Shown piece after piece: positions 911 to 18,290 of a DNA stretch of 49,361 nucleotides. This stretch comes from Bacillota bacterium (lineage in GTDB: Bacteria; Bacillota; Clostridia; Saccharofermentanales; Fastidiosipilaceae). The stretch covers positions 1 to 49,361 of the forward strand of contig JASGUW010000150.1 in the NCBI GenBank assembly GCA_030055235.1, in the 5' to 3' direction. The translations under genes and the position numbers were made by a program. Every line of letters starts with the position of its first letter. The stretch's first letter is position 1. The notes below the pieces were generated by a model. That model was not told where the DNA came from. It saw only the letters and a list, made by a program, of their open reading frames with translations, and made no database searches.

Positions 911-3197
911 GTTTGACGCGGGCGGCCTCTTCGGCGCGCTTGGCGTCGTTGAAACGGTCGAGGGTGCCGACCAGGTAGCCGGTGATGCGGCGGATGCGCT
1001 GGAAGGGCTGTTCCGGGGTCTCCTGGCGGCCGCAGCGCGGGCAGCGGTCGCCGATAACGCCGTTGTAGCCGCAGACCGGGTCGCGGTCGAGCGGGTGGTT
1101 GATCGAGCCGTAGCCGACACCGGCGTCGCGCATCTGCAGGATCAGGCGCTCGAAGGCGGCCAGGTTCTGGGAGGGATCGCCGTCGAGCTCGACATAGGTG
1201 ATGTGGCCGGCGTTGGTCAGGGCGTGGTAGGGCGCCTCCAGGCTGATTTTGCGCGTGGCGCTGATGGTGTAGTAGACCGGGATGTGGAAGGAATTGGTGT
1301 AGAAGTCGCGGTCGGTGATGCCGGGGAGGAGGCCGTAGCGCTTGCGGTCGATGCGGACGAAGCGGCCCGACAGGCCTTCGGCAGGGGTGGCCAGCAGGGT
1401 GTAGTTGAGCTGCTCGGCCTGGCTGCGGCGATCGCAGCGCTCGCGCATGTGGCCGATGATCTCGAGTCCGAGCCGCTGGCTGTCGGGGCTTGAGCCGTGG
1501 TGCTCGCCGGTCAGGGCGACCAGTGTCTCCGCCAGGCCGATGAAGCCGACGCTGAGGGTGCCGTGGCGGAAGACGCGTCCGAGCTCCTCATCGGCCGACA
1601 GGGTATCGGAGTCGAGCCAGATGCCCTGGCCCATGAGGAAGGGAAAATTGCGGCGGGTTTTGCGCTTCTGGATCTCAAAGCGGTGGCGCAGCTGCCGGAA
1701 GACCAGGTCCATGGCTTCGTCGAGCAGGCGGTAGAAGGCGTCCAGGTCGCCGCGGGCCTCGATGCCCAGACGCGGCAGGTTGATCGAGGTGAAGCTGAGG
1801 TTGCCGCGGCCCATCGTCACTTCCTGCCGGGGATCATAGACGTTGCCGATGACGCGGGTGCGGCAGCCCATGTAAGCGACTTCGCTGTTGGGGTCGCCCG
1901 CGCGGTAGTACTGGGCGTTGAAGGGGGCGTCGAGGAAGCTGAAGTTGGGGAAGAGACGCTTCGCCGATACCCGGATCGCCAGGCGGAAGAGGTCGTTGTT
2001 GGGGTCTTCAGGCTCACTGTTGACGCCGCGTTTGACCTTGAAAATCTGGACCGGGAAAATGGCGGTTTCGCCTTCGCCCAGGCCGTCTTCGGTGGCCAGC
2101 AGCAGCTGTTCGATGACCAGGCGGCCGGCTGCGGAGGTGTCGGTGCCGTAGTTGACCGAGCTGAAGGGGACCTGGGCGCCGGCGCGGGAGTTCATCGTGT
2201 TGAGGTTGTGGACCAGGGCCTGCATCGCCTGATAGGTGTCACGGACGGTGCGGCTGTGGGCGAGGTCGAGGACGGTCCGGAGGCCGGCGGGGAGCTCGGG
2301 AGAGGTGTTTAGAACTTTGCAAAGCTCATCATAGTCCATCGTCTCCAGACGACCGCTGAGCTCTGCCGGCCAGCTGTCGCGGTCGCGGTAGAGGGCCGCC
2401 TCCTCCAGAAGGTCGGCGAGGTGTTTCTGACAGCTGCGGTTGACGCCGGGCGCCAGGGCGAAGTCGAAATTGGGGATGGACTGGCCGCCGTGCATCTCGT
2501 TCTGGTTTGCCTGAATCGCGATGCAGGCGAGCGCGGCATAGCTCGCGATGCTCTGGGGCTGGCGCAGGAAACCGTGGCCGGTGGAGAAGCCGCCTGAGAA
2601 GAGCCGGGTCAGGTCGATCTGGCAGCAGGTGGCCGTCAGCAGATAGAAGTCCTTGTCATGGATGTGAATCAGGCCGCTGCTGTGGGCCTCTGCCATGTCT
2701 TCCGGCAGGATGTAGGCGTCCAGGAAGGTCTTCGCCCCTTCCGAGCCGTATTTCAGCATGGTGCCCATGGCGGTGTCGCCGTCGATGTTGGCGTTTTCGC
2801 GCTTGAGGTCGCTGTCGCTGGCGGCGGTGGTTGAGAGCTGCTTATAGATGTCCATCAGCTGGGCTGCGTGCTCACGCCGCCTGCCGTGCTCGGCGCGGTA
2901 GACGATATAGGCCTTCGCCGTGCGCAGGACGCCGTGTTCCATCAGGGTCAGCTCGACGAGGTCCTGGATCTCCTCCACATGGGGGCAGGAGGCGGGGTCG
3001 AGCCTGGCGATGACTTCAGCGGTGATTTCGTCGAGCTGGCGGGAACTCAGGGTCTCAGAAGGGATGGTACGGTTTGCCTTGACAATGGCCTGACGGATCT
3101 TGAAGAGGTCAAAATGCATCAGACTGCCGTCGCGTTTGGTGATGGAACGGGGCATGCGGGTGATCTGGGCGAGTGTGTTTGGACTGACAGGCGACAT
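903..3197 (-). CDS. nrdD: Anaerobic (class III) ribonucleoside-triphosphate reductase
   Basis: The 764-residue catalytic subunit reduces ribonucleoside triphosphates to deoxy forms under anaerobic conditions. An N-terminal ATP-cone (about residues 14-105, starting ITKRDGS) provides allosteric control. The core has HGGQSIPNFDFALAPG and the YMGCRTRV cysteine segment. The C-terminal glycyl radical motif is RRITGYL, with the radical glycine at about residue 740. The zinc ribbon before it shows CPRC (719-722) but DPVC (706-709) where most relatives have two cysteines as CPxC, so one of four expected ligands is Asp. The start at 3197 has AAGGAG eight bases upstream. It is the first gene of an nrdD-nrdG operon with two candidate NrdR boxes in front. 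The family assignment is secure; the effect of the ligand change is unknown. Confidence 0.97.
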   Translation of the reverse strand: MSPVSPNTLAQITRMPRSITKRDGSLMHFDLFKIRQAIVKANRTIPSETLSSRQLDEITAEVIARLDPASCPHVEEIQDLVELTLMEHGVLRTAKAYIVYRAEHGRRREHAAQLMDIYKQLSTTAASDSDLKRENANIDGDTAMGTMLKYGSEGAKTFLDAYILPEDMAEAHSSGLIHIHDKDFYLLTATCCQIDLTRLFSGGFSTGHGFLRQPQSIASYAALACIAIQANQNEMHGGQSIPNFDFALAPGVNRSCQKHLADLLEEAALYRDRDSWPAELSGRLETMDYDELCKVLNTSPELPAGLRTVLDLAHSRTVRDTYQAMQALVHNLNTMNSRAGAQVPFSSVNYGTDTSAAGRLVIEQLLLATEDGLGEGETAIFPVQIFKVKRGVNSEPEDPNNDLFRLAIRVSAKRLFPNFSFLDAPFNAQYYRAGDPNSEVAYMGCRTRVIGNVYDPRQEVTMGRGNLSFTSINLPRLGIEARGDLDAFYRLLDEAMDLVFRQLRHRFEIQKRKTRRNFPFLMGQGIWLDSDTLSADEELGRVFRHGTLSVGFIGLAETLVALTGEHHGSSPDSQRLGLEIIGHMRERCDRRSQAEQLNYTLLATPAEGLSGRFVRIDRKRYGLLPGITDRDFYTNSFHIPVYYTISATRKISLEAPYHALTNAGHITYVELDGDPSQNLAAFERLILQMRDAGVGYGSINHPLDRDPVCGYNGVIGDRCPRCGRQETPEQPFQRIRRITGYLVGTLDRFNDAKRAEEAARVKHG

Positions 3198-3220
3198 AAA
3201 GCGGGCTCCTTGTTATATAC

Positions 3221-3250
3221 ATATTAGCTTTGGGTTACGCAGAAACACAA
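3221..3250 (-). promoter_or_regulatory. Probable nrdDG promoter
   Basis: On the minus strand TAATAT (3226-3221) is a good -10 and TTGTGT (3250-3245) a fair -35, 18 bp apart. The -35 lies inside the proximal NrdR-type box, so a bound repressor would block polymerase. The leader to the nrdD start would be short, about 20 bases. Confidence 0.55.
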
Positions 3251-3292
3251 TATGTTGTGGTTGGCGATTTGAGGTTAACGCATATGTTGTGG
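3245..3292 (-). promoter_or_regulatory. Tandem NrdR-type boxes upstream of nrdD
   Basis: Two related 16-bp imperfect palindromes occur: ACACAATATGTTGTGG at 3245-3260 and AACGCATATGTTGTGG at 3277-3292. The shared core TATGTTGTGG is offset by exactly 32 bp, three helical turns. NrdR, the repressor of ribonucleotide reductase genes, is known to bind pairs of boxes resembling ACACWATATATWGTGT about 31-32 bp apart. The match in sequence, pairing and spacing, in front of a ribonucleotide reductase operon, makes this a confident inference. No nrdR gene is in the window. Confidence 0.8.
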
Positions 3293-3328
3293 TTGGTCAA
3301 TGAAATCAGATTACAGTTTAATGACATC

Positions 3329-3356
3329 TTGGCAGCATTTTGGAAACAGATACAAT
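3329..3356 (+). promoter_or_regulatory. Probable promoter of the Gfo/Idh/MocA oxidoreductase gene
   Basis: TTGGCA (3329-3334) and TACAAT (3351-3356) are separated by 16 bp, which predicts transcription starting near 3363 and a leader of about 65 bases. GGAGG just before the ATG at 3429 serves as ribosome binding site. Confidence 0.5.
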
Positions 3357-3428
3357 AGCGGGTAGTTAGAAAGTCCGACGCACGGACACAGAAGGCGGCC
3401 CCCAGGAGAGGGTCAGTGGAGGTAGAAA

Positions 3429-4502
3429 ATGTCGCAGCGGAAGTATCGCCTGGCTTTTATTGGCTATGGCAGCATGGCCGGCTGGCACCATAAGAATGTG
3501 GTGGAGCGTGCCCCGGAATTTGAGGTTTACGGATCCTACGATATTGATCCAAAACGCCAGGAGGCGGCAGAAGAGAAAGGCCTGAAGGTCTATGCTTCAG
3601 CCGACGAGCTGCTGGCTGATCCCAGCATTGACGTGGTCACCGTCGCGACGACCAACAACTTCCATGCGGACTACTCGATCCGCGCGCTGGAGGCCGGGAA
3701 GAACGTCATCTGTGAGAAACCGGTGACCATGAACTCCGCCGAGCTCGTCGCCATCATGGAAGCCCAGCAGCGGACCGGCCGGCATTTTGCGGTACACCAG
3801 AACCGCCGCTGGGATCCGGACTATCTGACGCTGAAGCGTGTTCTGGAGGAGGGTACGCTCGGAAAGTTGTTCCAGATCAAGTCGCGGGTGCTCGGCTCCC
3901 GTGGCGTCCCGGAGGGCTGGCGCACGGCGCCGGAGGCCGGCGGCGGCATGATGCTCGACTGGGGCGTCCATCTGCTGGACCAGATCCTGATGATGATTCC
4001 CGAGCGCCTGACCGAAGTCAACTGCCGCATGCACCACACTCATGTAGAAGCGGTCGACGACGGTTTCCTCTGCCAGCTGATCTTTGAGTCCGGCCTCTAT
4101 GCCATGGTTGAGGTGGATACAACCTGCTTTGTCGGCGAGCCACGCTGGCATGTTCGCGGCGATATCGGTACTCTGACGATTGACGATTGGGATTGTAACG
4201 GGCGCATCGTGCATGCCCGTGACATGGAGACAGTCTGGGAGGAGGAGATTCTCTACACCGCCGCCGGCCCGACCAAGACCATGGCGCCGCGCACCCGTTT
4301 CAGCGAAGAAACTCTGCCGCTGCCGATCGTCCGTGAAGACTGGATCGACTTCTACCACAACTTCGCCGCCGTGCTTGACGGCCGCGAACAGCCGCTCGTC
4401 CTGCCCGCGGAGAACCTCTTCGTGATGCGGGTGATGGAGGCGGCCTTTGAATCCGACCGCAAACGCTCCACGATTCCGATCGACTTCGCGATCGGCGACT
4501 GA
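3429..4502 (+). CDS. Gfo/Idh/MocA family NAD(P)-dependent oxidoreductase
   Basis: This 357-residue protein has an N-terminal Rossmann fold beginning FIGYGSMAGWHH, the family EKPVT motif near residue 97, and a C-terminal alpha/beta substrate domain with GGGMMLDWGVHLLDQ, which carries the usual Asp and His of the active site. Members oxidise or reduce a hydroxyl of a sugar, inositol or sugar derivative; the substrate cannot be read from the sequence. GGAGG lies about seven bases before the start. The next gene begins about 100 bp downstream on the same strand and also looks concerned with carbohydrate, so the two may share a transcript. A short tandem repeat copying the end of the coding region follows the stop codon directly. 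Confidence 0.9.
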   Translation: MSQRKYRLAFIGYGSMAGWHHKNVVERAPEFEVYGSYDIDPKRQEAAEEKGLKVYASADELLADPSIDVVTVATTNNFHADYSIRALEAGKNVICEKPVTMNSAELVAIMEAQQRTGRHFAVHQNRRWDPDYLTLKRVLEEGTLGKLFQIKSRVLGSRGVPEGWRTAPEAGGGMMLDWGVHLLDQILMMIPERLTEVNCRMHHTHVEAVDDGFLCQLIFESGLYAMVEVDTTCFVGEPRWHVRGDIGTLTIDDWDCNGRIVHARDMETVWEEEILYTAAGPTKTMAPRTRFSEETLPLPIVREDWIDFYHNFAAVLDGREQPLVLPAENLFVMRVMEAAFESDRKRSTIPIDFAIGD

Positions 4503-4556
4503 TCGGCGATTGATCGGCGACTGGCCAGTGAACGACCAGCGACTGATCGGCAATTG
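4491..4556 (+). repeat. Short tandem repeat running out of a gene 3' end
   Basis: The last bases of the oxidoreductase gene, GATCGGCGACT plus the stop, recur as GATCGGCGATT, GATCGGCGACT and, after a short insert, GATCGGCAATT. The repeat period is 11-12 bp and begins inside the coding sequence, so the extra copies appear to be duplications of the gene end. Confidence 0.8.
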
Positions 4557-4606
4557 TTGGAGCGCACCGGGCGCGCCACGCGGCCCGTATGAGAAGGGAG
4601 CTTGAT

Positions 4607-6739
4607 ATGGCACAGGACGTTCAGAAGACAAGGACTTGGAACATGGATCTGGACCGGGAGATTACAGAGCGCGGTCTGGCGGAGCTGAAGGTTCCCGCCG
4701 CTGCCGATCCGGCCGCGGCCGACTGGCGCAGAGCGCAGAAGGCCCTCTTCCAGCAGCATGTCTACGGTGTTCTGCCGCCCCTGGAGGATATAAGCTTCCG
4801 GGAGACGGGAGAGGCTGAGGAGGTCTTTGGAGGCAAAGCCCGGCTCATGACCGTCTCCCTGGGCCTCAAGACCACCGGCGGTGAGCGTGAGGCCCAGCTG
4901 ACGGTGCTGCGCCCGCTGCGCCTGGATGAACCGGTCCCTGTCATTGTCTACTTGAGTTTTACGCCCTGGCCAACGGCGGGTCAGGCTCCGCTGGAAGAGA
5001 TTCTTGACAGCGGCTACGGCCTGATCGTCGTGCCCTATGAGGCGATCACGAGCGACGACGGCGATTTCACGAACGGGCTGGCCGGCATCATCGACCGCGA
5101 CCCCGCGGCGCCCGACAGCTGGGGAAAGATCGCACTCTGGGCCTGGGCGGCCAGTCGGGCCGCTGACTACCTGGCGTCCCAGACCTGGGTCCAGCAGCGG
5201 CGCATCGTCGTGGCCGGGCATTCACGCCTGGGCAAGACAGCGCTCTGGGCGGCCGCCTCTGACAGCCGCTTCTCCGCGGTCATGGTCAACCAGTCCGGCT
5301 GCAGCGGAGCCGCCGTGACCCGGGGGAAGGACGGCGAACAGATCGCCGACATTACCGGAAACTTCCCCTACTGGTTCTGCCCCCGCTACCTGGACTATGC
5401 CGGCCGTGAGGCGGATCTGCCCTGCGACCAGCACCAGCTGCTGGCAGCGGTGGCGCCGCGCCGCGTCTATGTCGCCAGTGCCGCCCGGGACAGCTGGGCG
5501 GATCCGGCGAGCGAGTATCTGGCCATGCTGCTGGCCCGGCGGGCCTGGCCCCTGGATCCGCAGACGCACTTCAGCGCCGGCGACTTTGTCCTGGGGGAGG
5601 ACGGTCTGCCGCAGCCCTTTGCCGTCGTCAGCCCCGCGCTCGGCTACCACTGCCGCCCGGGCTCGCACTGGTTCAGCCGTGAGGACTGGTTGGGTTTCCT
5701 GCACTTTGAGACGGTCGGAGCGGCTCAGCTGCCGCAGCCCCCGGCCGCCGATGTCGCCGCCGAGCTTGAGAAGCTGCCGCGTATTGAGGTGCCGGAAGAG
5801 AAAAGTGAGCCCTCCGCCAAACCCGTGCTGGTCATCATGGCCGCGGGCATGGGCAGCCGCTACGGTGGGCTCAAGCAGCTCGAGCATGTCTCCGGACACG
5901 AACAGGCCATCATCGATTACTCCATCTATGACGCCTGGGTGGCAGGCTTTGAGACCGTCATTTTCATCATTCGCCGTGAACTGGAAGAGGCCTTCCGCTC
6001 GGCCATCGGCGATCGTATCGGCCGGGTGATGGAAGTCAAGTATGCCTTCCAGGATCTCAATGATCTGCCCCCGGGCTATCATGCTCCTGAGGGCCGGACC
6101 AAACCCTGGGGTACGGGCCATGCCGTCCTGGCCGCCCGCCACCTGATCAAGGGCCCCTTCTGCGTGATCAACGCCGACGATTACTACGGCTCCGAAGCCT
6201 TCAAGCTGATCCATGCGGTCCTGTCACGTCCGGCTGCCGAAAGTGACCTGCTGTCACTTTCCATGGTCGGCTATCAGCTCGCCAATACCGTTACCGAGCA
6301 CGGCTATGTCTCCCGCGGCATCTGTGAGCTCGACGCCAATAACCACCTGCTGTCCATCACCGAGCGCACCCGCATCGTCTCCGATGCGGACGGGCAGACC
6401 GCCTTCAGTGAGGACGGCGGCGAAACCTGGACCCAGGTGTCGCCGCAGTCGGTTGTCTCAATGAATATCTGGGGTTTCCCGCAGGCCTTTATGGCGGAGC
6501 TCGAGCGGCGCTTCCCGGCCTATCTCGACAAGGTGAGAGAGGACAGCCCGAATGCCAGTGAGTTCTTCCTGCCCTCCGTGGTCGGAGAGCTCATCGCCGA
6601 AGGCAGCGCCCGGGTGCGCGTCCTGCGCAGCAACAACAAGTGGTACGGCATCACCTATCCTGAGGATCTGCCGCAGGTACGTGCGGCCATTGCGGAGATG
6701 ACTGCCGCCCGGCTCTATCCCGAGCAGCTCTGGACCTGA
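4607..6739 (+). CDS. Fusion of CE15-like esterase and sugar nucleotidyltransferase
   Basis: The 710-residue product joins two normally separate enzymes. Residues about 1-390 match glucuronoyl-esterase-like alpha/beta hydrolases (CE15): nucleophile motif GHSRLGKTAL with Ser near 206, NQSGCSGAA, LPCDQHQLLAAVAPRRVYVAS, and the catalytic-His segment RPGSHWF near 354. After an acidic, Pro-rich linker, residues about 405-710 form a nucleotidyltransferase with AAGMGSRYGGLKQ and the NADDYYG metal-binding segment, as in sugar-1-phosphate nucleotidyltransferases. There is no signal peptide, so it is probably cytoplasmic, odd for an esterase family usually acting on plant cell wall. I prefer the ATG at 4607 because AAGGGAG sits six bases before it; an ATG at 4589 is possible. 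The end overlaps the convergent adhesin gene by 89 bp. The substrate is unknown. Confidence 0.88.
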   Translation: MAQDVQKTRTWNMDLDREITERGLAELKVPAAADPAAADWRRAQKALFQQHVYGVLPPLEDISFRETGEAEEVFGGKARLMTVSLGLKTTGGEREAQLTVLRPLRLDEPVPVIVYLSFTPWPTAGQAPLEEILDSGYGLIVVPYEAITSDDGDFTNGLAGIIDRDPAAPDSWGKIALWAWAASRAADYLASQTWVQQRRIVVAGHSRLGKTALWAAASDSRFSAVMVNQSGCSGAAVTRGKDGEQIADITGNFPYWFCPRYLDYAGREADLPCDQHQLLAAVAPRRVYVASAARDSWADPASEYLAMLLARRAWPLDPQTHFSAGDFVLGEDGLPQPFAVVSPALGYHCRPGSHWFSREDWLGFLHFETVGAAQLPQPPAADVAAELEKLPRIEVPEEKSEPSAKPVLVIMAAGMGSRYGGLKQLEHVSGHEQAIIDYSIYDAWVAGFETVIFIIRRELEEAFRSAIGDRIGRVMEVKYAFQDLNDLPPGYHAPEGRTKPWGTGHAVLAARHLIKGPFCVINADDYYGSEAFKLIHAVLSRPAAESDLLSLSMVGYQLANTVTEHGYVSRGICELDANNHLLSITERTRIVSDADGQTAFSEDGGETWTQVSPQSVVSMNIWGFPQAFMAELERRFPAYLDKVREDSPNASEFFLPSVVGELIAEGSARVRVLRSNNKWYGITYPEDLPQVRAAIAEMTAARLYPEQLWT

Positions 6740-9700
6740 GTCGGAAGAAGAGAACTGTAGCGAGCAGCAGGAAGGCCAGGCCCAGAAGTCGTTCACTTGG
6801 ACTAGGCATTCCGCTTCCCGTCTTTGTCAGAGCGGCCGGCGGCGGAAGCCGTCTGTTGCTGACCGTGATGGAGAGGCTGCCCTCATCCATTTCGGGATCA
6901 ATGCGAAAGTCGAGCGGCACGCCCGCCACAAAGCCGGCGGGTGTTTTGACCTCCTGCAGCCGGTACTGCCCGCGGGCCAGAGCCAGGACGCGGATGAGGC
7001 CGTCTTTGTCGCTGACGAGTTCGCTTGAAACTTCGATTCCGTGAGCCTGGAGCTCGGCGGCCCGGGAGGCCGCCACGGGCCGCCAGGCTCCGTTTTCGTC
7101 GCGGCGGAAGGAGAGGGTGGTGTCGTTCTCATCCTGGATGGAAAAGCTGACACCGGCCAGCGCTTCGCCATCATCCGTCTCTTTTCGGATCACGAGCTCG
7201 GTCGGCCGGTTGTAGAGGATGACGGACTCACTTTCGACGCGGCCGTCGGGGTGCAGGATAAAGGGCAGGCGGTCGCTTGAGAGCAGGTAGCCCTCCGGCG
7301 CGTACTCTTCGTAGAAGACATAGGAGCCCGGTTCGAGGCAGCGGGCACGGACGGTTCCGTCGGCAGCCGTGATGTCCTCGAAGACGACGGTGCCGTCCTC
7401 TGTGGCAATGCGGATGGTGGCGCCCGGGAGCCCGGCGGCATTGGTGATGTCCTGCTTGCTGAGCTCGACGACAAGTGCTTCGTTGCTGATGCCAAGTTCA
7501 AGCGCTGCGGAGCTGCTGTTTTCCGTGCCGACCGTGAAGGGGAATTCCCGTTCCTCCCGGCGGTATCCCGGAGGCGGCATCTCTTCCAGCAGCTGATAGC
7601 TGCCAAAGGGCAGGCCGTAGATGAGCAGGTCGCCGTCGGAACCCGTTATCAGCTCTTCTGCTGCTTCCGCAGTTTCCGCAGTTTCCGCAGTTTCCGCAGC
7701 CGCCGCAGGACGCCAGATGCCGTCTTCGTTGAGGAACGTGAGTGATTCGCCGTCTTCGTTGAGTATTTTGAAAACGGCGCCGGCCAGTGCCTGGCCGCTG
7801 TCGGCGTCGCACTTTTTGATGTTCACGGCGGTGGGTTCGTTTGTGATCTCAAGGAGGAGGGGGAGAGAGGCGCAGCTGTCTGTATCGACACTGAAAGCAA
7901 ACTCCCGCTTTTCCTGACAGTAGCCTGCAGGGGCGTTTGCCTCCAGCAGCTGATAGCTGCCAAAGGGCAGGCCGTAGATGAGCAGTTCGCCGTCGGTGTC
8001 GGTTACTGGTTCTTGTGTCGCCTCCCGAGCCGCTGAAGGACGCCAGACGCCAGCTTCTTTGAGGAACGTGAGCGCTTCGCCGTCTTCGTTCAGAACCCTG
8101 AAGACCGCGCCGGCCAGCGCCCGGCCGTTGCTGCTGTCAAGCTTTTTGATACGCACGGCGGTGGGTTCGTTTGCAAGCTCAAGGAGGAGAGGGAGAGAGG
8201 CGCAGCTGTCTGCATCGACGCTGAAGGCCATCTCCCGGTATTCCTGACAGTAGCCGGCAGGGGCGTTTGCCTCCAGCAGCCGATAGCTGCCAAAGGGGAG
8301 TTCGTGGATGAGCAGTTCGCCGTCGCTGTCGGTTACCGCTTCTTGTGTGCCTTCCCGACCCGCCGATGGACGCCAGATGCCGCCCTCTTTGAGGAGCGTG
8401 AGCGCTTCACCGTCTTCGTTCAGAATCCTGAAGACCGCTCCGGGCAGTGCCCGACCGCTGCCGCCATCGAGCTTTTTGATCAGTACAGCCGTCGGCTCGT
8501 TTTCAAGTTCAAGTCTGACGGTCTCGGCATCCTGACGGACGGTGACCGTTTTTTGACTCTCAGCGGCGATGAAGCCCGCCGGTACCGCTTCGGTGATCTG
8601 GTAGACGCCGTAGGGCAGCAGCTCACTGGTCGCTTCGCCGTTGGCATCCGTGACCAGGCGCGCCACTTCTTCGCCGGCTTCATTCGTCAGCACAAAGGTC
8701 ACAGCGGGGAGCGGGCGCCCGTCATGGCGGCTGTGTTTGCTGATGGCGATATGCCCCTGAATACGCCGATTGGCGAAAGAGAGTGTCACTGTCTCTCCGT
8801 CACGAACAGTCTCATCGATCTTGAAAGAGAGCCCCTCTTCACTCAGGACGTAGCCGTCAGGAGCGGAGAGTTCCTCAATGCGGTACTGACCGTAGGGCAG
8901 CATTTCAGGGAGAGTGACAGAGCCCGTTTCATCACTTTCCCAGACCTCAATACTCTGCGCTGAGGGATTGTGGACGGTCTGGCGCAGCGGTTCCCCCGTG
9001 GCCAGATCAATGATGCGGAAGCGGATCCCCGCCTGACAGATGGCTTCGCCTGTCTCCTGGTCGACCTTCACCACCCGGACACGCGCCTGATAGCTTTCGT
9101 TTATGATGTCGATCTGCTCCACAGCGCCGTCACGGTCGCCATAAGGGATGTGGACGGTCCGGGGCTCTGACGGTTTGGCCCAGACCGGGGTCTCTTCCTC
9201 CAGCAGATAGTCGTCGTAGGGAAGGTTTTCCCAGACCGCGATGCCGTTCGCGTCGCTCTCCACTTTGTAAGTCTGTTCCGGGTCAGAGATCAGGGTCAGA
9301 TTGAAGGTGATACCGCCAAGCGCTTCCAGGCTGCTGTCGCCGTCGCCTCCGCTTTTCCTCCGGCTCTTGTTGATCTGAACGGAACCGCGCAATACCCTGT
9401 CCCTGACCTGACAGACCGTCTCAACGACAGCCGTCTTCTCATTGCTGTAGCTGAGCTCGACGCTCTGTGGTGTGGGGTCGAGGAGATAGCCCGGAGGTGG
9501 CGATTCCTCAATCACGGTGTAGCGGCCAAGGGGGAGCTCAGGGGACAGCGCGACTCCGTTTTCGTCCGTAGTCAGGCGGGAAACCTCCTGTCCTCCATGA
9601 TCCTCAATGCGATAGACGGCACCGGCGAGTGTGGCATCGCCCTGCGACCGGGCACCTGTCTCCTGATCGCGCTTTTCCAGGCGAATGCGGCCCCGGGCCG

Positions 9701-11204
9701 CCCCGTTGACCAGCGTCAGATTAACGATAGCCTCAGCCGCCTCCATGCCGGCATAGGCGAGTTCAAAGCTCTGCTCCGTGCCATCCGGGAGCCAGGGTGC
9801 GGGCACTGAGAGTTCCCGGACCCGGTAGCGGCCAAGGGGAAGACTGTCGCTTGTGGCGATGCCTTCGCTGTTGCTTTCGATCTCGGCGAGCACGTTGTCG
9901 CCGTCCTCCGGCAGGATGGCGAAGCGGGCCCCGGCAATCGGGATGCCGTCCGGACTTTGCTTGGATACAATCAAACGTCCTGTCTGACGCCGATTCGTGC
10001 GGACGATCCTTTGTTCCTGACCGCTGCTGGCGGCGAGCGTAAAAGCGTAGGGAGTGGAGTCAAGGACATAAGGTGCAGGAACATGGCACTCGACGATCTC
10101 ATAGCTGCCGGGTGCGAACCAGCCGCTCTGGACAGTGCCATCCGCGCCGGTCTCAAGCTGAGCGATCTTTGTGCCATTCTGCCTGAGGTCGAAACTGGCG
10201 CCCTGAATCCGGGATCCGTCATCGCCCTGCTTCTCAATCCGGAAGCGGGCGAGGGGCGGTGCCAGTGTCACGGAACGCGTATCTGTGATGAGCAGCTCCT
10301 GTCCCGGATGGCCGACCAGATCCTGGGTGACGCCGCTGCCGCTGTACCAGCCATAGCGTGCCGGGCTGCGCGAGCTGGTGCCGGCCTTAAAGGTGAAGGT
10401 CTGCTCAGTGGCTGCAGCAGCGATCGGCATGCTCAAGGTCACGCTGGTGCCCGGTCCCCCGCCTGTCGGCGTCGCGGTCGCCGCTGCCGGCAGCTGGATG
10501 CTGAAGCGGTCGAAGCTGCCGTTGACAGTGACGTTTGTCGTTACCCGCTCACCGCTCACGGTCCAGGCCGGAGACTGGGGAGAGAGCTCAAGCTGCCCCG
10601 TGAGCAGAGTCGTGCCGGCTTCGGCGATGCGGTAGAGAGACTTGGCGAATTTGCCGGCGGCGTTGTCCTCATAGCCGTTCATGAGCTCGGCGGCAGTCAT
10701 GGTGTTGGACGTGAAACCGCAGGTGTTCATCCAGGCCCAGATCGCATAACGCGTGGCCTGGATGGAGGCGGACCAGTTGCCGGCTCCGTTGACGTTCGGG
10801 GCACCGGCGTCAAGAAGAGCAACCAGGCCGCGCATGGCTGACGCATTGTTGTTGAGAACATGCTGCCAGCTCTCCCTTGTCGGCCGTGTGTTGGCCCCGT
10901 TCAGGCTCTGGTCGATGCAGTAGAAAATGGTGCCCTTTCCATCCGGCCCTTTTCCGTCTGCGATGCGCAGGTCGGCATTGACCATGGGTGTGGAAGAGCC
11001 TTTAACATAGATTGCGCGATGTACGTCCGCCTCAATGACATGCACCGTCTCCGGCCAGTCTATGGCCAGAGCCAGCTGGGGGAAGAGAAGGCTGAGACCA
11101 AGAAGCAGCGCGCAGACAGCCCTTAGTCTTCTGGTACCGCGTCGTGGGATGGGCGAACGCGGGTCGATCGGGGGAGAATGATCCCTGAGTGTTGGATACG
11201 CCAT
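6651..11204 (-). CDS. Cell-wall adhesin: thioester domain plus eleven Cna-B/SpaA-type repeats
   Basis: A 1517-residue surface protein. A signal peptide with a long basic N-region and the core VCALLLGLSLLFPQLALA ends near residue 48. The head is a thioester domain: Cys96 in FYCID and Gln149 in IQATRYAIW match the Cys-Gln pair that forms a reactive internal thioester for covalent host attachment. From about residue 319 to 1450 I count eleven Cna-B/SpaA-type modules, each with a Lys near its start and a Glu in segments such as YRVRE or YRIEE, as in domains with isopeptide bonds. The C-terminus has LTKTGS (about 1459), a hydrophobic helix and RLRSR, a variant LPxTG sorting signal, then an unusually long 30-residue tail. 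GGAGG precedes the start. No sortase or pilin partner lies in the window. It could also serve as a pilus tip or stalk protein. Confidence 0.9.
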   Translation of the reverse strand: MAYPTLRDHSPPIDPRSPIPRRGTRRLRAVCALLLGLSLLFPQLALAIDWPETVHVIEADVHRAIYVKGSSTPMVNADLRIADGKGPDGKGTIFYCIDQSLNGANTRPTRESWQHVLNNNASAMRGLVALLDAGAPNVNGAGNWSASIQATRYAIWAWMNTCGFTSNTMTAAELMNGYEDNAAGKFAKSLYRIAEAGTTLLTGQLELSPQSPAWTVSGERVTTNVTVNGSFDRFSIQLPAAATATPTGGGPGTSVTLSMPIAAAATEQTFTFKAGTSSRSPARYGWYSGSGVTQDLVGHPGQELLITDTRSVTLAPPLARFRIEKQGDDGSRIQGASFDLRQNGTKIAQLETGADGTVQSGWFAPGSYEIVECHVPAPYVLDSTPYAFTLAASSGQEQRIVRTNRRQTGRLIVSKQSPDGIPIAGARFAILPEDGDNVLAEIESNSEGIATSDSLPLGRYRVRELSVPAPWLPDGTEQSFELAYAGMEAAEAIVNLTLVNGAARGRIRLEKRDQETGARSQGDATLAGAVYRIEDHGGQEVSRLTTDENGVALSPELPLGRYTVIEESPPPGYLLDPTPQSVELSYSNEKTAVVETVCQVRDRVLRGSVQINKSRRKSGGDGDSSLEALGGITFNLTLISDPEQTYKVESDANGIAVWENLPYDDYLLEEETPVWAKPSEPRTVHIPYGDRDGAVEQIDIINESYQARVRVVKVDQETGEAICQAGIRFRIIDLATGEPLRQTVHNPSAQSIEVWESDETGSVTLPEMLPYGQYRIEELSAPDGYVLSEEGLSFKIDETVRDGETVTLSFANRRIQGHIAISKHSRHDGRPLPAVTFVLTNEAGEEVARLVTDANGEATSELLPYGVYQITEAVPAGFIAAESQKTVTVRQDAETVRLELENEPTAVLIKKLDGGSGRALPGAVFRILNEDGEALTLLKEGGIWRPSAGREGTQEAVTDSDGELLIHELPFGSYRLLEANAPAGYCQEYREMAFSVDADSCASLPLLLELANEPTAVRIKKLDSSNGRALAGAVFRVLNEDGEALTFLKEAGVWRPSAAREATQEPVTDTDGELLIYGLPFGSYQLLEANAPAGYCQEKREFAFSVDTDSCASLPLLLEITNEPTAVNIKKCDADSGQALAGAVFKILNEDGESLTFLNEDGIWRPAAAAETAETAETAEAAEELITGSDGDLLIYGLPFGSYQLLEEMPPPGYRREEREFPFTVGTENSSSAALELGISNEALVVELSKQDITNAAGLPGATIRIATEDGTVVFEDITAADGTVRARCLEPGSYVFYEEYAPEGYLLSSDRLPFILHPDGRVESESVILYNRPTELVIRKETDDGEALAGVSFSIQDENDTTLSFRRDENGAWRPVAASRAAELQAHGIEVSSELVSDKDGLIRVLALARGQYRLQEVKTPAGFVAGVPLDFRIDPEMDEGSLSITVSNRRLPPPAALTKTGSGMPSPSERLLGLAFLLLATVLFFRLRSRAARDRAGRQSSPQWPHVPAADPQDR
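7480..8490 (-). repeat. Three near-identical tandem Cna-B modules
   Basis: Modules 7, 8 and 9 of the adhesin are direct repeats of about 320-340 bp. They share long identical stretches, for example around LNEDGEALTFLK, LPFGSYQLLEANAPAGYCQE and DSCASLPLLLE. The other eight modules are clearly diverged. Such identity allows unequal recombination that would lengthen or shorten the stalk. Confidence 0.85.
7662..7700 (-). repeat. In-frame 9-bp microsatellite in the adhesin
   Basis: Four copies of a 9-bp unit (GTTTCCGCA on the plus strand) encode Ala-Glu-Thr repeats inside module 9. Copy-number change would alter length by three residues without a frameshift, so this is length variation, not an on-off switch. 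Confidence 0.8.
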
Positions 11205-15200: not shown

Positions 15201-15793
15201 TCCTTGTCTAAAAGACTCTGGAGGAATTCATCTTCAGGCCTTTCGATCTTGGCCAGTTCATGGGACGTCCGGAAACCGTCAAAGAAGTGAAGAAAAGGAA
15301 TGCGGGCCTTGATGGCAGCCAGGTGGGCGATGGGGGCCAGGTCAGCAATCTCCTGGCCGCTTCCCGTGGACAACATGGCGAAGCCGGTCTGCCGGCAGTT
15401 CATGACGTCGGAATGGTCGCCGAAGATGCTGAGCGCATGCGTTCCCACAGCTCGTGCGGCCACATGGAGGACGCCCGGCAGCCTCTCTCCGGAAATCCTG
15501 TGCATAACCGGGATCATCAGGAGCAGGCCCTGGCTGGATGTAAAGGAGCTTGCCAGAGCTCCGGTTTGCAGGGCCCCATGGACGGCGGAAATGGCTCCTG
15601 CCTCAGACTGCATTTCCACCAAAGTCACTTCGCGACCCAGGAAATTCTTCCGTCCCCTGGCCGCCCAGGCGTCCGTATGCTCCGCCATGGGGGAGGAAGG
15701 GGTGATGGGATAGATCGCTGCGATTTCTGTAAAGCCATAGGCCATGTCCGCAGCAATCTCATTGCCGTCCATGGTGACGATGGGTTTAGTCAT
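12269..15793 (-). CDS. nifJ: Pyruvate:ferredoxin (flavodoxin) oxidoreductase
   Basis: The 1174-residue single-chain enzyme oxidatively decarboxylates pyruvate, or a related 2-oxoacid, to the acyl-CoA and reduces ferredoxin. Visible in order are the N-terminal PIVTMDGNEIAADMAYGF domain with YPITPSSPMAE, two ferredoxin-type [4Fe-4S] motifs (CIQCNRCSYVCPHAC near 690 and CTGCGSCVHVCP near 744), the cluster-binding CAGCGETPY segment, and the thiamine-diphosphate segment GDGWAYDIGFGG (about 958) with NTGGQSSKATP. Length is normal for the family. AAGGAG lies seven bases before the ATG, inside the end of the upstream gene, with an 8-bp overlap, so translation is probably coupled. It is the last gene of a three-gene operon whose other members point to a less ordinary role than central pyruvate oxidation. 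Arg codons AGG and AGA are commoner here than in the aro genes. Confidence 0.95.
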   Translation of the reverse strand: MTKPIVTMDGNEIAADMAYGFTEIAAIYPITPSSPMAEHTDAWAARGRKNFLGREVTLVEMQSEAGAISAVHGALQTGALASSFTSSQGLLLMIPVMHRISGERLPGVLHVAARAVGTHALSIFGDHSDVMNCRQTGFAMLSTGSGQEIADLAPIAHLAAIKARIPFLHFFDGFRTSHELAKIERPEDEFLQSLLDKEALAAFRAQSLNPERPRLRATVQNPDIYFQVREANQPFYDRLPGIVQDYMDAISAYTGRSYRLFNYYGHEEADRVIVAMGSVSGTIKEAVDYLNERGQKVGFIQVHLFRPFSMEHFLAALPDTCRRIGVLDRCKEMGSAGEPLYQDVCSVLYRTRPEISVVGGRYGLGSKDTDPSQILAVFENLKTDQAKNSFTIGITDDINQSSLAYDLTEKIGNSDLVSCKFWGLGGDGTVGANRNTVQIVNETTDLYAQAYFEYDAKKSFGVTKSHLKFSARPIRGSYYVKQADFLACHNQRYIETYDIVDEIVPGGTLLLNCSWAPEELESKLPDPVKRQLALKDIQVYIIDATEIAIALGLGGFTNTVLQAAFFSLFKVLPLDEAAEKLKAAVRATYFAKGDLIVNRNLAAIDAGIKGVKKVDVPRTWLECSDAKEAPDPGLPQVVRDFLIPINRQKGDSMPTSAFIGYEDGAFEMGMTAYEKRGIAARIPRWIAENCIQCNRCSYVCPHACIRPYLLNKEEVERAPEGFQTIPATGSAARGLEYSLQVSAYDCTGCGSCVHVCPAKNKAIELVPADLNEDMLIPWSYAQTLSDKGDLFSPLTVKGSQFRKPLLEFSAACAGCGETPYAKLMTQLFGDRVYWANATGCSQAWGSPMPGIPYTVNEKGHGPAWSNSLFENNAEFSLGMALSVNHQRESLKARVQNLMSATENASLKEAARNWLDTYDDFEASQSASGKLIEALKEDGSDQSKAILADSEHLAKKTFWMFGGDGWAYDIGFGGLDHVVASGADVNVFVVDTEVYSNTGGQSSKATPIGAVAQFASSGKASHKKDLGAMLMTYGNVYVAQVAMGADNSQVLKALQEAMAWKGPSVVIAYAPCIAHGIRLGMDKVQTEMKRAVEAGYWLLYRYNPANPETPLTLDSKEPSMSYEEFLKGETRYASLVRTFPDRAEVLFEEGRRAAIERYRKYKRLEDMQTLANCDE

Positions 15794-18290
15794 TGGGTTC
15801 TCCTTTAGCGGCTTTCAAATACGCTTCGGCATTTTCACGCATCTTGTATTTCATGATTTTGCCGGCGGCATTCATGGGGAAGCTGTCGATAAAGACCACG
15901 TGCCTGGGCACCTTGTGGCGCGACAAACTGGAGGCAATATAGTCCTTCATCTCCCTTTCCGTCATGCTTTCCCCATCCTTGAGGATGACGCAGGCCATGA
16001 CTTCTTCCCCATATCTTTGACTGGGTATGCCGATCACCTGAACGTCCCGGACCTTGTCATGGGTGTAGATAAACTCCTCGATTTCCTTGGGATAAATATT
16101 CTCTCCACCCCTGATAATCATGTCCTTGAGCCTGCCGGTAATGACGTAATACCCTTCCGGTGTCCTTTGCGCCAGGTCGCCGGAGTGGAGCCAGCCGTCC
16201 TGGTCGATGGCTTCCTTGGTCTCTCTGGGCATCTTGTAGTAGCCCTTCATGACGTTGTAGCCTCTGGCACAGAATTCCCCGTCGGCACCGGCCCCCAGCT
16301 CTTCTCCGGTCTCCGGGTCTACGATTTTGCATTCAATATGGGGGAAGGGATAGCCCACGGTCTGGGCACGCATATCCAGAGGATCCTGCCAGGCGCTCAT
16401 GGTGTTGCCAGGCGAAGTCTCCGTCTGACCATAGACGCTGACGATGCCCCGCATGGACATGCCTTCCGGGTGGGGCTGGGCTGCCCGACGCATCAGTTCG
16501 GCAGGACAGCCAGATCCGGCCATAATGCCGGTCCGCATATAGGAGAAGTCAGTCCTGGCAAAGTCGGGATGGTTGAACATGGCAATGAACATGGTGGGAA
16601 CGCCGTTCATGGCCGTAATCCGCTCCAGATTGACGCAGGCCAGGGAGGCCTTGGCCGAAAAATAGGGCAGGGGGCACATGGTAGCCCCATGGGTCATGGA
16701 TGCTGTCATGGTCAGGACCATGCCAAAGCAGTGGAACATCGGCACATGGATCAGCATGCGGTCTGCTGTGGACAGGCCCATGCGGTCGCCAATGGCCTTG
16801 CCGTTGTTGACGATGTTGTAGTGGGTCAGCATGACCCCCTTGGGAAAACCGGTGGTTCCGGACGTGTACTGCATGTTGCAGACGTCGTCCACCTTGACAG
16901 CAGCAGCCAGACTGTGAACGTCTTTCAGAGGAACCCTGTCAGCCCGGCCCATGGCCTCGGCAAAGGTCAAACAGCCCTTCATGCGGAAACCGACCGTAAT
17001 GACATTTCTCAGGAAGGGGAGCCTTTTGGCATGGAGGGATTCACCGGCTACCGTATTTTCCAGCTCAGGACAAAGTTCCTGGATCGCCTTCGCATAGTTG
17101 GAATCCAGAGCGGATTCAATGGTTACCAGCGTATGTGTGTCCGACTGCCTGAGCAGATATTCGATCTCATGGATTTTATAGGCGGTGTTGACGGTGACCA
17201 GGACGGCACCGATTTTGACCGTGGCCCAGAAGGTGATAAACCACTCCGGCAGGTTTGTCGCCCAGATGGCCACCTTGCTGCCCGGTTGAACGCCCAGAGA
17301 CAGCAGGGCACGGGCAAAGGTATCCACGTCATCACGGAATTCCGAATAGGTTCGGGTGTAGTCCAGTGTGGTGTACTTAAAGGCGTACTGGTCAGGAAAC
17401 TCTTCCACGACCCGGTCCAGCATCTGAGAGAAGGTCGTATCGATGAGAATATCCGGCTCCCAGATGTACTGGCCAGTGTGGTCAAAGTTATAGTAGAGCT
17501 CTTTCTTCCGGCTTTTGGGGCTTTGAAAGCGCTTCATATAGTTGACAAAGTGGGGCAGGATGATCTCGTGGTCCTGGAGGTCTTCCATCCAGACCGGTTT
17601 CCATTCCAGAGAGATAAAGCCTCCGTAATTAATGGAATAGAGGGCATTGATCATCTCAGCCACCGGCAGAGTTCCCTCACCGATCAGGTTATAGGTATCC
17701 GCATCGTCTGAGTCTCTCAGATGAACATGGCGGACATAGGCCCCCAGATTTTTGATGGTCTCCGCCGGATCTTCGTGAAAACTGCGGTAGGGGTGGTGCA
17801 TATCCCACAGGACGGCGAGCTCATCGCAGGCGAAGGTGTTGAGCAGGTCCCGCAGGCGGGCCGTGTCTCCATAGATCCCGCAGGTTTTGACCAGCAGGAT
17901 AATGCCTTTGTCTGCCGCATAGGGAAGGAGGGCCTCCAAGTTTTTATGAACCTGATCCGGATTTTCTTTCAGGGCCGCCACCGCTACATAAGGGACTTCC
18001 ATGGCCTGGGCTGTATCCATGAGAAAGCGAACCTGCTTCAGGGTTTCGGGATCTTCCTGGGAAAGATCACAGTAACTGTCAAAGCAGGAAATGCTTAATT
18101 TGTTGTCGAAAAGCGAGCGCCTGGTTCCGATCCGGTTAGACTGGTGGAAAGGGCCGGTGAGTTCATATAAAGCAGGATTCTTATGCAGGCTGTAGATTTC
18201 CAGACCCTGAAAGCGCATCTGCAGGGCAGCATCTACCCACTCATCCCAGCCTAAATGGTCCCATCCACGGGTTGAAAAAGACAGTTTCAT
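15786..18290 (-). CDS. Fusion of sugar isomerase-like TIM barrel and AMP-forming acyl-CoA synthetase
   Basis: The 834-residue product has two parts. Residues 1-270 resemble sugar-phosphate isomerase/epimerase (AP-endonuclease-2-like) TIM barrels, and possible metal ligands are visible in GLEIY, LWDMHHPY, RHVHLRDSD and FISLEWKP. Residues about 285-830 are an ANL-superfamily synthetase: P-loop YTSGTTGFPKGV near 474, HSGDLA, GRLKDMIIRGGENIYP, and AAGKIMKYKM with the catalytic Lys. Both halves keep their key residues, so both are probably active. The ATG overlaps the upstream stop codon by one base (TGATG), with AGAGGTG just before it, and the gene overlaps the next by 8 bp. The acyl substrate is unknown. 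The fusion, between a degenerate isopropylmalate-synthase homologue and PFOR, suggests a dedicated pathway ending in or consuming an acyl-CoA. Confidence 0.88.
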   Translation of the reverse strand: MKLSFSTRGWDHLGWDEWVDAALQMRFQGLEIYSLHKNPALYELTGPFHQSNRIGTRRSLFDNKLSISCFDSYCDLSQEDPETLKQVRFLMDTAQAMEVPYVAVAALKENPDQVHKNLEALLPYAADKGIILLVKTCGIYGDTARLRDLLNTFACDELAVLWDMHHPYRSFHEDPAETIKNLGAYVRHVHLRDSDDADTYNLIGEGTLPVAEMINALYSINYGGFISLEWKPVWMEDLQDHEIILPHFVNYMKRFQSPKSRKKELYYNFDHTGQYIWEPDILIDTTFSQMLDRVVEEFPDQYAFKYTTLDYTRTYSEFRDDVDTFARALLSLGVQPGSKVAIWATNLPEWFITFWATVKIGAVLVTVNTAYKIHEIEYLLRQSDTHTLVTIESALDSNYAKAIQELCPELENTVAGESLHAKRLPFLRNVITVGFRMKGCLTFAEAMGRADRVPLKDVHSLAAAVKVDDVCNMQYTSGTTGFPKGVMLTHYNIVNNGKAIGDRMGLSTADRMLIHVPMFHCFGMVLTMTASMTHGATMCPLPYFSAKASLACVNLERITAMNGVPTMFIAMFNHPDFARTDFSYMRTGIMAGSGCPAELMRRAAQPHPEGMSMRGIVSVYGQTETSPGNTMSAWQDPLDMRAQTVGYPFPHIECKIVDPETGEELGAGADGEFCARGYNVMKGYYKMPRETKEAIDQDGWLHSGDLAQRTPEGYYVITGRLKDMIIRGGENIYPKEIEEFIYTHDKVRDVQVIGIPSQRYGEEVMACVILKDGESMTEREMKDYIASSLSRHKVPRHVVFIDSFPMNAAGKIMKYKMRENAEAYLKAAKGEPND

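Follow-up and report, generated by a model that had tools for sequence, protein, structure and literature searches.

The window analysed here, a stretch of 49,361 nucleotides of contig JASGUW010000150.1 from a clostridial member of the Fastidiosipilaceae, carries on its forward strand a gene that joins a CE15-type esterase to a sugar-1-phosphate nucleotidyltransferase. The reading frame runs uninterrupted from 4607 to 6736, encodes one protein of 710 residues and ends in a TGA stop codon at 6737-6739. The features discussed below are the following:

3429-4502, + strand: Gfo/Idh/MocA-type oxidoreductase gene, directly upstream of the fusion gene (Pfam)
4607-6739, + strand: fused CE15 esterase / sugar-1-phosphate nucleotidyltransferase gene (710 residues plus stop)
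4742-5716, + strand: CE15 domain, residues ~46-370 (phmmer matches to 6grw, 6syu and 6ehn; Pfam PF22244; fold match to CE15 structures)
5222-5227, + strand: codons of the predicted catalytic Ser206 and oxyanion Arg207 in GHSRLGK (OtCE15A Ser267/Arg268; 81 of 81 homologues)
5291-5293, + strand: codon of Gln229, in the place of the non-canonical acid Glu290 of OtCE15A (Glu in the sister species)
5489-5491, + strand: codon of Asp295, predicted canonical catalytic acid (OtCE15A Asp356; 81 of 81 homologues)
5666-5668, + strand: codon of His354, predicted catalytic histidine (OtCE15A His408; 79 of 81 homologues, the other two gapped)
5717-5815, + strand: inter-domain linker, residues ~371-403 (high dN/dS relative to both flanking domains)
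5816-6736, + strand: nucleotidyltransferase domain, residues ~404-710 (match to 3pnn)

The ATG at 4607 is preferred as the start over the ATG at 4589, which a mechanical reading of the frame would give, because the ribosome-binding-like sequence AAGGGAG lies immediately 5' of it and the homologous protein of a sister species starts at the equivalent methionine. The start assumed in an earlier note on this DNA is thereby confirmed, as is its central observation that an esterase and a nucleotidyltransferase share one continuous frame: the frame is open throughout, both halves exceed their Pfam cut-offs (GCE_fung, PF22244, 82.4 bits against 27; NTP_transferase, PF00483, 24.1 bits against 21.2) and the fusion recurs in the sister species. 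The oxidoreductase gene upstream is likewise present there, at 92% identity. Between 3200 and 6900 the sole promoter-like site on the + strand lies at 3329-3356, ahead of the oxidoreductase gene, and although such matches are weak evidence, co-transcription of the oxidoreductase and fusion genes is plausible. The gap between the two genes contains short imperfect repeats of the 'GATCGGCGACT' type (4490-4560). Elsewhere in the window, the - strand encodes at 6654-11204 a large surface protein that carries roughly ten prealbumin-like repeats of the SpaA type, and at 15789-18290 another fusion, of a xylose-isomerase-like TIM barrel with an AMP-binding enzyme of the acyl-CoA-synthetase type; full-length counterparts of the latter are conserved in the sister species (95%) and in the order's family f2 (~55%).

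The sister protein comes from a second species of the same genus (G001; apparently record JASGUU010000054.1) and is 84% identical over residues 1-709. Comparison of the two genes gave dN/dS ratios of 0.22 for the CE15 domain, 0.63 for the linker and 0.10 for the nucleotidyltransferase domain, which indicates that both domains are under purifying selection and that the linker is loose, a profile that reads as two constrained enzymes joined by a flexible joint. Synonymous divergence between the two carriers amounts to ~0.53 changes per site, a distance over which both halves have stayed conserved. The linker of the sister species has diverged in sequence while keeping its reading frame, and it contains no ATG, GTG or TTG ahead of the nucleotidyltransferase core; in the window the sole such in-frame codon before the core is a GTG at residue 395, which lacks a clear ribosome site. 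The second half is therefore unlikely to be translated on its own. According to the earlier note, the fusion would be overturned by evidence of a frameshift or of an assembly join around 5790-5820, and the assembly of the window is indeed fragmented (242 contigs). The separate assembly of another species, however, shares the architecture and the upstream gene and has a different linker that remains in frame, so that an artefact within the linker is very unlikely, to the point of being scarcely credible.

Outside these two genomes, no match spanning both halves was found among the genomes searched, 188 from the order, 391 from the class and 398 from the phylum (overlapping sets), in which each half is common as a free-standing copy. 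Both enzyme types are common among gut bacteria. The fusion is thus restricted to one genus and represents a new domain combination of two families that were already known; the genome of the window has one member of each family, and both lie inside the fused protein. No CE15 gene lies beside a nucleotidyltransferase gene in any of the 43 nucleotidyltransferase loci examined, which speaks against an ancestral operon having collapsed into the fusion. The viral contigs searched yielded no relative, PHROGs held no matching family, and the plasmids searched contained single-domain relatives only. In the open-access literature we found no description of an esterase-nucleotidyltransferase fusion of this kind.

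The assignment of the N-terminal half to CE15 is supported by both sequence and predicted structure. It matches OtCE15A (6grw) with E=1e-52 in phmmer, and residues 1-397 as modelled with AlphaFold2 (pLDDT 86.8, pTM 0.88), when used in a fold search of the PDB, retrieved CE15 glucuronoyl esterases as all of its top 42 matches. This model was built from a CE15-only alignment, because the combined two-domain alignment misaligned single-domain rows; the full-length model came from an alignment with depth in the nucleotidyltransferase half only, was of low confidence across the CE15 half and was not the one used for the fold search. In common with OtCE15A and other bacterial CE15 enzymes (6grw, 6syr, 6gry, 6ehn, 8q6s), the fused protein has the alpha/beta-hydrolase fold, the GHSRLGK motif with an arginine after the serine, and a Ser-His-Asp triad, which by alignment and residue count is Ser206-His354-Asp295. 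It also retains the equivalents of Lys271, Glu305 and Trp358 of OtCE15A, the residues named for glucuronate binding in that enzyme, as Lys210 and Glu244, each invariant in 81 of 81 homologues, and Trp297, present in 79.

The claim that the catalytic motifs are intact holds with one refinement: Ser206, Arg207, Asp295 and His354 are kept, but acidic residues at both triad positions, as in OtCE15A, are not found, since Gln229 occupies the non-canonical position of Glu290. Across the clade this position holds mostly Asp, Cys or Asn, besides other residues. Bacterial CE15 members can carry the acid at either position (PMC11096219), and in OtCE15A the E290A variant keeps about 60% of its turnover on benzyl glucuronate (kcat 10.3 versus 16.6 per second), because Asp356 can serve in its place, whereas S267A and H408A lose almost all activity (PMC8933493). 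Gln229 should therefore not abolish activity, and the CE15 domain is predicted to be active. Some members of the family also act on galacturonate esters (PMC11096219), and family knowledge suggests that the likely substrates of this half would be small uronate esters entering the cell. The genes neighbouring free-standing CE15 relatives offer no further guidance, as a tally of these neighbours revealed neither a carbohydrate theme nor a consistent pathway.

Export is typical of CE15 enzymes, yet it does not define them. The N-terminus of the fused protein is hydrophilic (MAQDVQKTRTWNMDLDREITERG), and the earlier conclusion that it has no signal peptide follows from this sequence; the notion that a leaderless CE15 enzyme is an anomaly, in contrast, finds no support. 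A rough hydropathy screen for leaders flagged five of the 81 clostridial CE15 relatives, of which L107 alone seems genuinely exported; in the other four, the flagged stretch precedes the probable start. The leaderless state thus appears to be normal in this clostridial clade, whose members mostly lack a leader by this screen. The apparently exported protein of L107 (1054-4287, + strand; 1078 residues) combines a FAD-oxidoreductase-like part, named from its sequence, with a C-terminal CE15 domain. Other joined forms were seen among the relatives: on L131 of the family relative G011 (2795-4561, - strand), an N-terminal BioH/PcaD-like alpha/beta hydrolase is fused to a CE15 domain, and on L045 (4693-7071, + strand) an apparent single frame holds a tryptophan-synthase-beta-like part (again named from sequence) and CE15, which could stem from loss of a stop codon or from faulty assembly. 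Paired nearby CE15 genes within the same genome occur on L063, L072, L073 and L105. Modular CE15 enzymes have been described before, such as CkXyn10C-GE15A, in which a xylanase and carbohydrate-binding modules accompany CE15 (PMC8280721). The fused protein resembles it in that CE15 is one module of a larger protein. Unlike in these enzymes and other bacterial CE15 proteins, the partner here is a cytoplasmic sugar-nucleotide enzyme, a nucleotidyltransferase, instead of a secreted module, and unlike OtCE15A-type enzymes the protein combines the missing signal peptide with a glutamine at the second acid position.

The C-terminal half matches 3PNN over its full length (305 residues, E=4e-74), and the two share the motifs GMGSRYG-LKQL and NADD. 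Among 44 sequences, GxGSR, G421/K423/Q424 and NADD are at least 95% conserved. The PDB entry is titled 'conserved domain protein', its relatives are annotated as sugar phosphate nucleotidyltransferases, and no paper naming 3PNN together with a nucleotidyltransferase was found in the open-access literature. None of the NCBIfam equivalog or subfamily cut-offs was reached, the best score being 26.6 bits against 292 (Arch_glmU); GalU (13.1 bits against 326.8) and IspD (13.9 against 181.3) likewise fell far short. Whereas the relatives found are free-standing proteins of ~310 residues that often lie near nahK or galE, this domain makes up the C-terminal part of a fused protein. With adjacency strictly limited to 500 bases, 15 of the 43 loci have a gene for a NahK-type kinase next to the relative and 8 of 43 have galE there, more galE genes sitting one gene further away; in some members of the order, namely family f3, the gene instead lies beside tRNA-synthetase-type and other genes. 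In a tree, the fused nucleotidyltransferase falls near the nahK/galE-linked members with moderate support (82/83). The genome itself encodes NahK (match to 4wh1, E=4e-99) on another contig and GalE (62% identity) elsewhere, both unlinked to the fusion. Because many of its relatives sit beside NahK-type kinases and GalE, the substrate of this half is probably a hexosamine-1-phosphate, which points to salvage rather than uronate activation. The arrangement recalls the N-acetylhexosamine salvage of bifidobacteria (NahK, GalT, GalE), in that NahK and GalE homologues accompany this nucleotidyltransferase family both in Clostridia and in the genome of the window; it differs in that the nucleotidyltransferase would replace GalT and in that the genes of the latter genome are scattered.

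With moderate confidence, we favour the reading that this is a genuine, genus-restricted fusion of two ordinary cytoplasmic enzymes which act independently or in loose coupling and form no consecutive two-step path. Judged from its sequence, the protein consists of a serine esterase of the leaderless CE15 clade joined through a loose linker of ~33 residues to a 3PNN-type nucleotidyltransferase. The N-terminal half may hydrolyse glucuronate or galacturonate esters on small imported plant-wall fragments, with cleavage proceeding through Ser206-His354-Asp295 and with Arg207 as the oxyanion holder. The C-terminal half, like its free-standing relatives, would convert a sugar-1-phosphate and an NTP to a nucleotide sugar; the sugar-1-phosphate would most likely be GlcNAc-1-P or GalNAc-1-P made by the NahK of the genome, and the product could pass to GalE and downstream use. 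The two activities would be co-expressed and co-located, possibly together with the upstream oxidoreductase.

The earlier note had proposed instead that one polypeptide de-esterifies a uronate ester and then activates the freed sugar to an NDP-uronate. The conservation of both active sites would suit such a route, as would the cytoplasmic location of the protein, where NTPs are available. A nucleotidyltransferase, however, requires a sugar-1-phosphate, which a free uronate is not, and the intervening kinase step that would supply the 1-phosphate is absent: the fused protein has no kinase domain, and no kinase gene lies next to its own. The proposal is therefore unsupported, and with the nucleotidyltransferase relatives pairing with N-acetylhexosamine kinases and the genes of the two families standing apart in the loci examined, we regard it as distinctly improbable. 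It is unlikely, if less strongly so, that the esterase half was recruited to work on what the transferase itself consumes or makes, for instance by de-esterifying a sugar-1-phosphate or an NDP-sugar before or after nucleotidylation. This would explain why the two were joined into one chain, and the branch that separates the CE15 half from its free-standing relatives is indeed long, at 1.35 changes per column; the retention of all three glucuronate-site equivalents suggests an ordinary uronate ester substrate, however, and we know of no ester-bearing sugar-1-phosphate in this pathway. Functional coupling of the active sites, with the esterase freeing a group on a sugar phosphate or nucleotide sugar, or passing an intermediate to the other half, has a slender chance in our estimate.

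An accidental and neutral origin, in which a deletion joined two genes whose products remain fully independent and without benefit from the union, has a minor though not negligible chance of being correct. The presence of the fusion in two species only, the separation of the corresponding genes in relatives and the looseness of the linker are all compatible with it, whereas its persistence over the synonymous divergence given above, with both halves conserved, is not readily expected of a neutral event. In practice, such an origin is hard to tell apart from the preferred reading of two loosely coupled or independent enzymes.

These observations amend the view of CE15 enzymes as invariably secreted and directed at the plant wall, and they indicate a likely role of 3PNN-type nucleotidyltransferases in hexosamine salvage. 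Gene neighbourhoods do not reveal the function of the leaderless clostridial CE15 enzymes, so that the main value of the fusion lies in the possible functional clue it offers to this clade. If coupling of the two active sites were true, it would amount to a hitherto undescribed path leading from esterified sugars of the plant wall to nucleotide sugars; and should the two halves prove to be functionally linked, their fusion would serve as a direct 'Rosetta stone' clue to the role of these widespread esterases.
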